Below, in pieces: positions 1,981-4,910 of a stretch of 52,167 nt of DNA. Below the pieces are notes generated by a model. It was not told the DNA's origin. It ran no database searches and saw only the letters and a program-made list of their open reading frames with translations. The DNA lies in NCBI GenBank assembly GCA_015057055.1, contig SVFE01000012.1, forward strand, positions 1 through 52,167. The letters run 5' to 3'. A program made the position numbers and the translations under genes. The stretch is from Lachnospiraceae bacterium. Lineage in GTDB: Bacteria; Bacillota; Clostridia; Lachnospirales; Lachnospiraceae. Within the stretch, counting starts at the first letter, position 1, and every line of letters begins with the position of its first letter.

Positions 1981-2063
1981 TTTCCTTCTTCGCTTTCCTT
2001 CTTGGCTTTCCTTTATCATACTTTACTACTTTCAACACGTCATCTGTATGTCATGTTAGAAAA

Positions 2064-2091
2064 ATTATATCATATTATTTGGTATACTCAA
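2064..2091 (-). promoter_or_regulatory. Predicted vegetative promoter of the WYL-regulator operon
   Basis: On the minus strand TTGAGT (2086-2091) and TATAAT (2064-2069) are 16 bp apart, about 85 bp upstream of the WYL regulator start. The -35 box abuts the stop codon of the upstream nuclease-like gene. Confidence 0.7.
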
Positions 2092-2093
2092 GT

Positions 2094-2867
2094 TTATAAC
2101 TTGCTCTCCACATATCTTTCCAGCACATTTGTATCCAACGGACTTCCTAAAGTTTCATGTGTAATAATCAATTCTTCCCCTATTAGAATCCCGTTCTTTT
2201 CATACAGATCAATCTTCCACATGGCTTTTTCATAATATGATGACTTATCCATCATTCCCAAATGTTCAAGATAATATCTTTTCCCCGTCCCCTTGCCAAG
2301 TATGGTAAAGTCGGGATAAACCACAACCGGGCGATTTCGGTAATTCAATTCCAGTGGCAGTTCATAATGATAAGGAATTCCCTTTCGCTTTAAAGTATCT
2401 GCAATTATTTTTTCTGATTTTGACCGTACTCTTTCACCCTTCTCCGTATAATAAGCGGTTGTATCATTCTCTTCAAATTCTTTTCCCTGATATGTAATGT
2501 CCTCGAATTCCTTAATAATATCTTCCATTGGCTTTATATATGGAGCCACCAGTTCTTTTCTCGCCGGATGAAGTTTTTCATAAACCTTGTCCAATGCGTA
2601 CCGATCCAAAGTCATCAACAAATCATGAATCGCCATCTTCTGTTTCTTTATACACGGCAACATTTTTTGCCAGTATTCTTTTTGGGCAATCTTCTGAACC
2701 GTTTTTCTCATTTTCTTCCCCTGATACTCGCTTCCGATATAGTATTGATAACTTCCTTTGTTGATAGCACACCGAAGTTTCCCCTCCGGGGCCTCTTTCA
2801 CAAATCTTTCCGCCCGTTTTTCCAATTCAATCAGTTCATACAAAACATTTTTTAATTCTTCTTGCAA
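2094..2867 (-). CDS. PD-(D/E)XK nuclease-like protein with TTG start, next to a palindromic array
   Basis: A 257-residue protein of no assigned function. The start is TTG at 2867, chosen because AAGGAGA lies 7-8 bases upstream (2873-2880). Residues 1-90 are basic and helical, with KLRCAINKGSYQYY, a stretch I associate with a family of uncharacterised Clostridia proteins. The C-terminal half has GERVRSKSEKIIADTLKR, then VVVYPDFTILG, then RYYLEHLGMMD. This E...PD...E(x) arrangement is typical of restriction-endonuclease-fold enzymes, with E152-region, D191-region and E207-region as candidate metal ligands (approximate numbering). The first half-site of the 62-bp array (2882-2889) lies immediately 5' of the Shine-Dalgarno, so its leader or promoter lies within the array. 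DNA binding or cutting is inference. Confidence 0.65.
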   Translation of the reverse strand: MQEELKNVLYELIELEKRAERFVKEAPEGKLRCAINKGSYQYYIGSEYQGKKMRKTVQKIAQKEYWQKMLPCIKKQKMAIHDLLMTLDRYALDKVYEKLHPARKELVAPYIKPMEDIIKEFEDITYQGKEFEENDTTAYYTEKGERVRSKSEKIIADTLKRKGIPYHYELPLELNYRNRPVVVYPDFTILGKGTGKRYYLEHLGMMDKSSYYEKAMWKIDLYEKNGILIGEELIITHETLGSPLDTNVLERYVESKL

Positions 2868-2881
2868 ATCTATTCTCCTTT

Positions 2882-3481
2882 TTTACCTATTATTTTGTTT
2901 TCTCATCTTTCTGGTTGGTATCTTCATAAAGTCCCACACAGCATTTACCTACCAACAAGTTTACTTAAATCCTACGATTGGTAAATTTCAAAGCGCGGTA
3001 TTCGCTTTTACCTATTATGATTTTCTCCAAACTCGCCAATAGGTAAATCGCCATTGTCAATGTCAAACTTTACCTACTCAAATGATTGTCCAATGCAACA
3101 ATAGGTAAATCGCCATCGTCGATGCCAAAGTTTACCTACTCACATGATTGTTCAATGCGACAATAGGTAAATAACAAACCGCAATGCCAAACTTTACCTA
3201 CTCACATGATTGTCCAATGCAACAATAGGTAAATCGCCATCGTCAACGCCAAAGTTTACCTACTCAAATGATTGTCCAATGCAACAATAGGTAAATCGCC
3301 ATCGTCAACGCCAAAGTTTACCTACTCAAATGATTGTCCAATGCAACAATAGGTAAATAACAAACCGCAATGCCAAACTTTACCTACTCACATGACGGCT
3401 CAAAGCACCAATGGGTAACCATGGGAACAAATGGAAATATTTTACCCACGAAAATACACAACACAAAAGCCAGTTGGTAAA
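2882..3481. repeat. Ten tandem 62-bp units, each a TTTACCTA-N25-TAGGTAAA inverted repeat
   Basis: Units begin at 2882, 2944, 3007, 3069, 3131, 3193, 3255, 3317, 3379 and 3441: a period of exactly 62 bp with one 63-bp step. Each unit is 41 bp running from TTTACCTA to TAGGTAAA plus a 21-bp linker. The central units (3069-3419) are nearly identical, with an inner ATTGT...ACAAT stem and two alternating linker types (beginning TCGCCATCGTC or TAACAAACCGC). In the edge units (2882, 2944, 3007, 3379, 3441) the 25-bp centre has diverged, yet the TTTACC and GGTA(AA) half-sites stay at the same offsets. This gives about 20 half-sites alternating in orientation with centres 33 and 29 bp apart, near three helical turns. 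No promoter is convincing inside it. The function is unknown; a protein-binding array is the simplest reading. Confidence 0.95.
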
Positions 3482-3670
3482 TCCCCTGCCAACACGACAA
3501 AAACCTACACTATTTTAACTCTCAAATGAATTTCTTCCCGAATCGGGAATCTAGAGATAGCAGAAACTCTGCTGAAAAATAAAACCGGCAAAATAACCGG
3601 ATAATAACCGGATAATAACCAGAAAAAATAATAGAAATAACTTAAAAAATTTAAGAAAATTATTAGAAAA
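3482..3670. other. Non-coding stretch with small palindrome and 11-bp tandem repeats
   Basis: Between the 62-bp array and the tuf terminator no gene is supported. It holds a 15-bp palindrome TTCCCGA-A-TCGGGAA (3535-3549) and three 11-bp tandem units close to ATAATAACCGG (3590-3600, 3601-3611, 3612-3622). A 69-codon minus-strand open frame (3505-3714) crosses the terminator and has no recognisable features. Confidence 0.6.
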
Positions 3671-3702
3671 TTACAGCCCTCTAAAAACTTAGAGGGCTGT
3701 AA
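3664..3702 (-). terminator. Intrinsic terminator after tuf
   Basis: A perfect 14-bp stem, TTACAGCCCTCTAA (3671-3684) with TTAGAGGGCTGTAA (3689-3702), has a 4-nt loop and is followed on the minus strand by TTTTCTAATA. It lies 21 bp past the tuf stop and closes the str operon. Confidence 0.93.
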
Positions 3703-3722
3703 CAAATTAGACATTACTATAA

Positions 3723-4910
3723 TTACTCGATAATTGTAGCAACACGGCCTGAACCTACAGTACGTCCACCTTCACGGATAGCGAATGTAAGACCCTGTTC
3801 CATAGCGATAGGATGGATGAGTTCGATTGTCATCTCTACGTTATCACCAGGCATGCACATTTCTGTACCAGCGGGAAGTTCACAAACACCTGTTACGTCA
3901 GTTGTTCTGAAGTAGAACTGAGGTCTGTAGTTGTTGAAGAAAGGAGTATGACGTCCACCTTCATCTTTTGTCAAAACGTAAACCTGTGCTGTAAATTTCT
4001 TGTGGCAAGTTACAGAAGCGGGTTTAGAAAGAACCTGTCCTCTTTCGATATCTGTTCTGTTGATACCACGAAGAAGAGCACCGATGTTATCACCAGCCTG
4101 AGCTTCATCAAGCATCTTACGGAACATTTCGATACCGGTTACAACAGTCTTTCTGGTTTCTTCTTTGATACCAACGATTTCTACTTCGTCGTTGAGGTGA
4201 AGAACACCACGCTCTACTCTACCGGTAGCAACTGTACCACGACCTGTGATTGTGAATACGTCTTCTACAGGCATAAGGAAAGGCTTATCTGTGTCACGCT
4301 GAGGATCGGGAACTGTTGTATCAACAGTTGACATAAGTTCCATGATCTTGTCACCCCATTCTCCCATAGGATCTTCAAGAGCCTTAAGAGCAGAACCTTT
4401 AACGATAGGGCAGTCATTGAAATCGTACTCAGCAAGCTGATCTGTGATTTCCATTTCAACGAGTTCAAGCAACTCAGGATCGTCAACCATATCACATTTG
4501 TTCATGAATACAACGATATAAGGTACACCTACCTGACGAGAAAGAAGGATGTGTTCCTTTGTCTGTGCCATAACACCATCAGTTGCAGCAACAACAAGGA
4601 TAGCTCCGTCCATCTGAGCAGCACCGGTGATCATGTTCTTAACGTAGTCAGCATGGCCCGGGCAGTCAACGTGTGCATAGTGTCTGTTCTCTGTTTCGTA
4701 CTCAACGTGAGCAGTAGAAATTGTAATACCTCTTTCTCTCTCTTCGGGAGCCTTGTCGATATTAGCGAAATCTACAGCTGCGTTACCAGCAACTCTTTCA
4801 GAAAGTACTTTTGTGATAGCTGCTGTAAGAGTTGTTTTACCATGGTCAACGTGACCGATGGTACCGATATTACAATGGGGTTTTGTTCTTTCAAATTTAG
4901 CTTTAGCCAT
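3723..4910 (-). CDS. tuf: Translation elongation factor Tu
   Basis: EF-Tu, 395 residues, the usual length. It is a cytoplasmic GTPase that delivers aminoacyl-tRNA to the ribosomal A site. All G motifs are visible: [10 protein letters not shown] (G1), RGITI (G2), DCPGHADYV (G3), NKCD (G4) and the SALKA region (G5), followed by beta-barrel domains 2 and 3 ending GRVATIIE. The ribosome site AGGAGG lies at a normal distance from the ATG. It is the last gene of the rpsL-rpsG-fusA-tuf set but has its own strong promoter in the 108-bp gap after fusA (4986-5014), which would allow higher expression than its neighbours. Only one tuf copy is visible here. Confidence 0.99.

Follow-up and report, generated by a model that had tools for sequence, protein, structure and literature searches.

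A phased array of inverted half-sites beside a nuclease-fold gene in a Lachnospiraceae bacterium, possibly one member of a large family of gene-array pairs

Why does a bacterial chromosome keep, directly ahead of one small gene, ten evenly spaced pairs of inverted half-sites? The question is raised by contig SVFE01000012.1 of a Lachnospiraceae bacterium (GCA_015057055.1), whose full 52,167 nucleotides we call the window. A first-pass annotation had described positions 2882-3481 as ten 62-bp units with some 20 half-sites in alternating orientation, with edge units whose centres had decayed around half-sites held at fixed offsets (one 1-bp insertion apart) and with homogenised middle units carrying two alternating linkers. 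Direct reading, TRF, and a half-site scan bear this description out. The array (2882..3481, no strand assigned) consists of ten dyads of the form TTTACCYAYTG-N~19-CARTRGGTAAA, joined by linkers of ~21 bp, and its period of 62 bp is broken by a single 1-bp insertion in unit two. The ten forward half-sites start at 2882, 2944, 3007, 3069, 3131, 3193, 3255, 3317, 3379, and 3441. Nine reverse half-sites were found from 2975 to 3471, and the tenth, which pairs with the forward one at 2882, is degenerate, with GGTA near 2916. In the outer units the centres differ and the TTTACC and GGTA positions are kept. The middle units (3069..3419, no strand assigned) are near-identical, with the two linker types in alternation, and appear to be the product of recent tandem duplication. 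The array opens with a forward half-site and closes with a reverse one, as do most of the array edges that we viewed, and neither target duplication nor empty insertion site was found.

The immediate neighbours of the array are a small gene and a housekeeping gene. Its gene-proximal half-site (2882..2892, no strand assigned) adjoins the Shine-Dalgarno-like sequence of a gene on the minus strand (2094..2867), which encodes a 257-aa PD-(D/E)XK nuclease-like protein and which we propose as the array-binding partner. This gene has a TTG start preceded by AAGGAG, and 14 bases separate the start codon from the array. On the other side, outside the array, lie a terminator-like hairpin (3670..3703, minus strand) and then tuf itself (EF-Tu; 3723..4910, minus strand). 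The element formed by array and gene thus sits downstream of tuf, as do two homologues (L229 and L259). An 11-bp short tandem repeat, ATAATAACCGG, lies at positions 3579-3628 of the window, between the array and the tuf terminator.

The half-site is not confined to this locus. From 59 copies, 54 of them distinct when flanks are included, we derived the consensus (T)TTACC[T>C,A]A[C/T]TG; the copies come from five arrays, four of the window's own genome (G000) and one of another genome of the family (G480). The scan demanded the letters TACC, and the full invariance of these four columns is by construction. Outside positions 1-11, the information is at most 0.21 bits at each position. The 2.23-Mb genome matches the pattern TTTACCTA-N20-35-TAGGTAAA at seven places, six of which are inside the window (0 for the reversed-pattern control), and it matches the triplet TTACC-N28-31-GGTAA-N22-25-TTACC 18 times forward and 19 times in reverse across four contigs, with no match of the control. 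Searching the same genome with the half-site, as the first-pass annotation had advised, yielded three further arrays: in addition to that of the window (contig C55, 10 units), they lie on C26 (8 units), C52 (4), and C60 (4). All four are located between recognisable genes, with short overlapping frames present, and the array on C60 overlaps the end of a small frame. They have half-sites and spacing in common, whereas centres and linkers differ, and at the BLAST threshold used they show no mutual similarity beyond the half-sites. The shared half-sites and spacing amid differing centres and linkers support the annotation's reading of selection on protein-binding half-sites. A stricter dyad pattern matches 13 places in this genome, every one inside an array, and no lone dyads of this strict motif were found there.

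The half-site pair also recurs with its spacing at other loci and in other genera. A covariance model built from 18 array stretches matched 13 of 397 genomes of the family (E <=0.01), with matches on several contigs in G480, G385, G363, and G225. Chains of 5 or more were present in G000, G480, G385, G363, G056, G203, and G257, and inspection by eye revealed arrays in G315 and G225. No chain of 5 or more accompanies the hits of G040, G075, G307, and G420. At the level of the genus, the triplet pattern matched 3 of 35 genomes, and outside the window's own genome only as single triplets, in G002 and G008. A further pattern scan gave single triplets in G037, G246, and G313, and we take all five as chance. 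Over wider genome contigs the strict pattern gave at least 116 stretches; among the matches listed, arrays were found in L051 (TTACC chains of 3 or more) and in L114, L115, and L124 (any 6-mer, 5 or more), while L067, with only three half-sites, was set aside as chance. In L114:1-800 (CADCDW010000035.1, Lachnospiraceae RUG14549), two different arrays adjoin, one of TATAGGTAA type and one of CGGTAACA type, with a period of about 74; no homologue of the 257-aa protein was found near them within the 8-kb piece. The DNA of the window array has no match in plasmids.

Which gene accompanies these arrays? The first-pass annotation had suggested recording the neighbouring gene wherever the pattern recurs, and the answer came first from G315, where two three-unit arrays in the same orientation surround one homologue of the 257-aa gene. 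At this locus (L212, G315:C50:1-1536) the paired arrays bracket the homologue like long terminal repeats. We gathered 71 homologue loci, namely 30 from the search, 40 from further down the list, and L229, to which an array hit had pointed. This selection was not random, since genomes with arrays had priority among the 40 added. Within 1 kb, TRF (period 45-95) identified an array upstream in 44 of the 71 loci and downstream in 11. For comparison, it was positive in 2 of 725 unrelated windows, from which the array-holding L051, L114, L115, and L124 had been excluded beforehand, and in a single one of 120 control windows, which were taken mainly from family genomes and kept at least 1 kb clear of known arrays. 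Alternating 6-mer chains of 5 or more were found upstream in 32/71 loci and downstream in 6/71, against none of 710 mononucleotide shuffles, three of 742 unrelated windows (L051 alone excluded), and none of the 120 family-control windows. The three positive unrelated windows are themselves arrays in Lachnospiraceae or Clostridiales contigs. A first family control drew its 162 windows from loci that had been chosen because of their arrays, and had 19 TRF positives; for the 120-window control, 1 kb around known arrays was removed and eight loci were added, and two of its loci belong to other families of the order.

When either criterion is accepted, an array lies upstream of the gene in 50 of the 71 loci, downstream in 13, and on either side in 54, which supports the earlier hint at the adjacent protein and links array and gene. 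Neither criterion detected an array on either side of the remaining 17, some of whose flanks are cut at contig ends; L259, which scored negative, has two CACCGYTAGTT-type dyads by eye. At class level, 7 of 17 loci (of 18, L326 being left out) have an array by the same criteria, four of them outside the family (L323, L325, L327, and L330). In G225, none of the three homologues fetched, out of seven, lies beside an array of that genome's lone-array motif. Quite a few homologue genes start close to a contig end, at most some hundreds of bases away, which would be expected if flanking arrays break assemblies. Homologues of the protein occur in 125 of the 397 family genomes (E 1e-5), about a third, and in 22 of 291 class genomes (E 1e-8), 15 of these in other families. 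They are present in 10 of the 13 genomes hit by the covariance model versus 115 of the other 384 family genomes (P 0.0008), and absent from G203 and G257 (97 and 98% complete) and G363 (77%).

If each protein has its own array, motif and protein should be expected to change together. The half-site words vary by lineage (TACCTA, ACCACC, ACTGCC, GATGCA, ACGGAC, GGGTAC, AGTCGG, CATGCA, ACCGTA, and others). Clear words could be read at 33 loci, and the 30 pairs of these with a 5-mer in common have a mean protein identity of 0.43 versus 0.368 when shuffled (0 of 2000 shuffles as high). Since 19 of these 30 pairs are at 40% protein identity or less, short words apparently also recur through chance or convergence. 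The periods are quantised: of the 50 upstream arrays, 27 have periods of 52-54, 16 of 62-64, five of 73-75, one of 70, and one of 85. They fit a helical ladder with a pitch of 10.45 bp (concentration 0.90, a value that none of 1000 uniform draws reached), a significance that is overstated by counting related sequences as independent. The earlier proposal that the 62-bp unit, at nearly six turns, would place its sites on one face of the helix is in line with this ladder. On the protein tree (70 rows; L280, with a stop inside, was dropped), period class changes 12 times versus 22.9 when shuffled (a count as low in none of 200 shuffles; period class assigned to 56 of the 70 rows), and in the starred set of nine rows that includes the window protein every period is near 63.

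The window's own genome encodes a second homologue, on C79, which is 46% identical to the window protein over residues 36-252 and whose array has the motif CACCGC and a period of 52. One genome thus holds two systems, TTTACC/62 and CACCGCC/52. Its exact CACCGCC dyads number 50 and form seven clusters, located on C38, C39, C49, C52, C65 (two), and C79 (control 0). The end clusters of contigs C38, C65, and C49 have units in common and are possibly halves of the same loci, hence the CACCGCC loci may number five. These arrays (G000:C79:16650-17570, C38, C39, C49, C52:46008-47084, and C65; loci L271 and L340-L345) have many near-identical units at the 52-bp period, several at contig ends, and their own homologue gene.

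Two other genomes give a view of how arrays come to be dispersed. Those of G480 are 75-91% identical, centres included, across C48 (where they flank the gene on both sides), C83, C26, C77, and C40; C83 and C48 each end within an array and these two may be one locus. In G385, dispersed TTACCTTCC arrays are 76-87% mutually identical, the homologue at C22:63416 has a downstream array with the TTACCTTCC motif, and one ACGTAC array lies away from the homologue that has its own ACGTAC array. With arrays at different loci of G480 and G385 75-91% alike, arrays are evidently copied or converted between loci of one genome. The genes also move or are regained: the three that follow tuf do not form a single clade (p-AU 1e-7). 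Eight of the 71 homologues are downstream of rpsI and two downstream of guaA. The eight rpsI loci are not a clade alone (p-AU 0.0006), though all are in one starred set of 17 rows; they would also fit inheritance with a host function, which we count against a mobilising role of the protein. The rpsI and tuf groups were named before the tree was made, and only interesting-looking groups were tested. Neighbours confirmed by Pfam are EF-Tu (two loci), S9 (one), GMP synthase (two), TIM (one), and a PEP-utilising enzyme (one). Others we take, by eye, to be comEC (three loci), rplQ, rplL, hemZ, and rpsI at seven of its eight loci; two comEC-like ends have no Pfam match.

The 257-aa protein has no match in Pfam or NCBIfam. 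AlphaFold confidently predicts a PD-(D/E)XK nuclease-like fold with the core of that superfamily, resembling TnsA and Bax1. In an alignment of 66 of the 71 homologues (L250, L280, L281, L285, and L293 dropped), E152, D186, E201, and H202 are invariant, and the first three agree with the conserved acidic residues of the superfamily. The usual place of the (D/E)XK lysine holds E-H-x-G instead of E-x-K, and we are therefore unsure of catalysis, although the invariant K150 might replace the missing lysine. Predicted alone, the N-terminal domain has only coiled-coil-type matches, and structure comparison gave it no nameable DNA-binding fold.

The array had been said to fit no standard class. This holds for membership, but not for architecture and population behaviour, which resemble those of BIME/REP repeats with their RAYT transposase, the closest working analogy. 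According to PMC3116915, PMC8266576, and PMC8049555, each RAYT is a single-copy gene with a different REPIN cluster beside it, and REPs in inverse orientation form BIMEs. The parallels with REPtrons are repeats beside a gene, different repeat types for different paralogues, cognate repeats dispersed in mostly intergenic positions, and co-evolution of repeat and enzyme; those with BIMEs are inverse orientation with linkers and tandem copies (PMC3116915, PMC8266576). A gene beside its own repeats together with dispersed cognates is indeed found in G000 (for two motifs), G480, and G385. The systems differ in their enzyme, since RAYT is an HUH Y1 transposase (PF01797) and the partner here is PD-(D/E)XK-like and without Pfam match. 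PF01797 was not found in G000, G385, G315, or G225 and is present in G480 and G363; with the domain missing from the window's own genome, we rejected RAYT as the partner. They differ also in their DNA, since TTTACCYAYTG is not self-complementary, the halves of a unit do not co-vary, and there is no hairpin with a GTAG tetranucleotide foot; the arrays here consist of dyads at helical-turn periods, with lone dyads of the strict motif absent from G000. Because enzyme and DNA element both differ, we do not file the system under RAYT/REPIN. CRISPR does not fit either: successive repeats switch orientation, and the spacers in the middle are near-identical. The predicted fold of the partner is similar to that of the TnsA endonuclease of Tn7. 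The sopC-like centromeres of plasmids have tandem units with inverted half-sites bound by dimers; in contrast, the arrays here are chromosomal, occupy several loci, and have a nuclease-like partner, and no ParA or ParB gene was recognised at the window locus.

Taken together, we lean slightly towards reading the window array as the cognate target array of the adjacent nuclease-fold protein, within a large two-part family in which the protein also mobilises arrays and whose plan is a chromosomal gene with an array mostly 5' of it, accompanied in several genomes by further arrays of that motif at scattered sites. What the sequences themselves show is the linkage of gene and array, motifs that are specific to lineages, quantised periods, and copying of arrays. 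Weighing against this reading are the displaced lysine, the 17 homologue loci and the lone-array case of G225 where no matching array was seen, the three model-hit genomes that lack a homologue, the limited similarity of the four TTTACC arrays to one another, word sharing at low protein identity, and the missing target duplication or empty site. The best reading is a stationary nuclease gene with a population of cognate, non-autonomous arrays. Under such a mechanism, protein dimers would bind each forward-reverse dyad, with units phased by a period near a whole number of turns; the nuclease domain would break or nick the array DNA; and repair by recombination or template switching would lengthen and homogenise arrays and occasionally copy them into other intergenic sites. 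The array would then replicate non-autonomously, mobilised by the protein, which by binding ahead of its own start codon would regulate its gene as well. That these pairs form a new class of chromosomal replicators in Clostridia, in which each population of helically phased dyad arrays has a dedicated PD-(D/E)XK-fold enzyme of its own specificity, independent in origin from REP/RAYT, is a proposition for which we consider the chances to be even.

A rather unlikely alternative is that the array is a multi-site autorepression region and that the dispersed arrays titrate the protein, a defence nuclease restrained by chromosomal arrays. The mostly upstream position of the arrays, in the window 14 bases from the start codon, would suit an operator. 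The nuclease domain also resembles the candidate defence families PDC-S68, PDC-S69, and HEAT_CxxC_PDDEXK; the PADLOC model PDC-S68 matches residues 123-255 (E 1.3e-28), although only the end of this model, which is 1221 positions long, is involved. However, up to 32 half-sites, with arrays at other loci, are more than an operator needs, and arrays on different contigs are copies of each other. Furthermore, the partner is rare on mobile DNA. In protein searches, 7 of 72,556 plasmid records match and none covers 80% (the best, 78%, lies inside an AAA ATPase), 2 of 50,697 phage records match, one of them a 4.2-kb unannotated contig with full cover, and the 8 matching loci on viral contigs are all confined to residues 114-257. 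On the same searches we rejected the idea that the protein is plasmid or phage cargo.

It is improbable, in our view, that the arrays are docking sites for chromosome organisation and that the nuclease fold serves as a structural DNA-binding module. Parallels would be parS and gyrase-binding BIMEs, and the helical phasing, the fixed half-sites between free centres, the positions downstream of housekeeping genes, and the altered active-site lysine are all in keeping with it. Against it stand the patchy presence of the protein across the family, the two unrelated motifs in one genome, and the invariant E and D residues of the nuclease core.

We see very little chance that transcription of the array yields a string of hairpins to which protein or RNA binds. 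In favour of this reading, the half-sites are inverted repeats and could pair in a transcript, and none of 500 shuffles of the 18-stretch alignment reaches its percentage of standard pairs or its co-variation score. However, three motif-variant rows of G385 account for at least 6 of the 16 two-sided cells of that count and reflect differences between arrays, not within them. In 25 distinct forward-reverse pairs, identity within units is not above shuffled at any of the 11 positions (lowest P 0.145). Because the half-sites of one unit vary independently, they speak for DNA-binding sites rather than an RNA stem, which adds to the case for selection on protein-binding half-sites. No promoter-like site was found in 2840-3760, and no Rfam family reaches its gathering score in 2000-3760, where the sole match (U6atac, 14.6 of 33 bits) is far below threshold and outside the array. 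The co-variation and Rfam tests led us to reject RNA hairpins. Finally, the freshly duplicated middle units could suggest a functionless chance tandem expansion, a reading to which we give almost no credence because half-site and spacing recur at other loci and in other genera, where they are linked to one protein family.

Our reading of the window array as the target of its neighbouring protein has consequences beyond this locus. The partnership between this nuclease family and private arrays is apparently widespread and undescribed; we found no description of such arrays in the open-access literature, and a prior description is possible in subscription papers, which were mostly outside the search. 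With homologues in about a third of the sampled family genomes, these elements may contribute notably to the repeats of gut bacteria and to breaks in their assemblies. Each gene's neighbouring array directly predicts its DNA target, which makes the evolution of specificity testable on dozens of natural pairs. If the replicator class is real, it would offer many ready-made pairs of protein and target site, with a specificity that can be read from the adjoining array. And if the enzyme drives the spread of the arrays, a way of life like that of RAYT/REPIN would have been reached a second time and independently, and the persistence of repeat populations could be tested on a new system.
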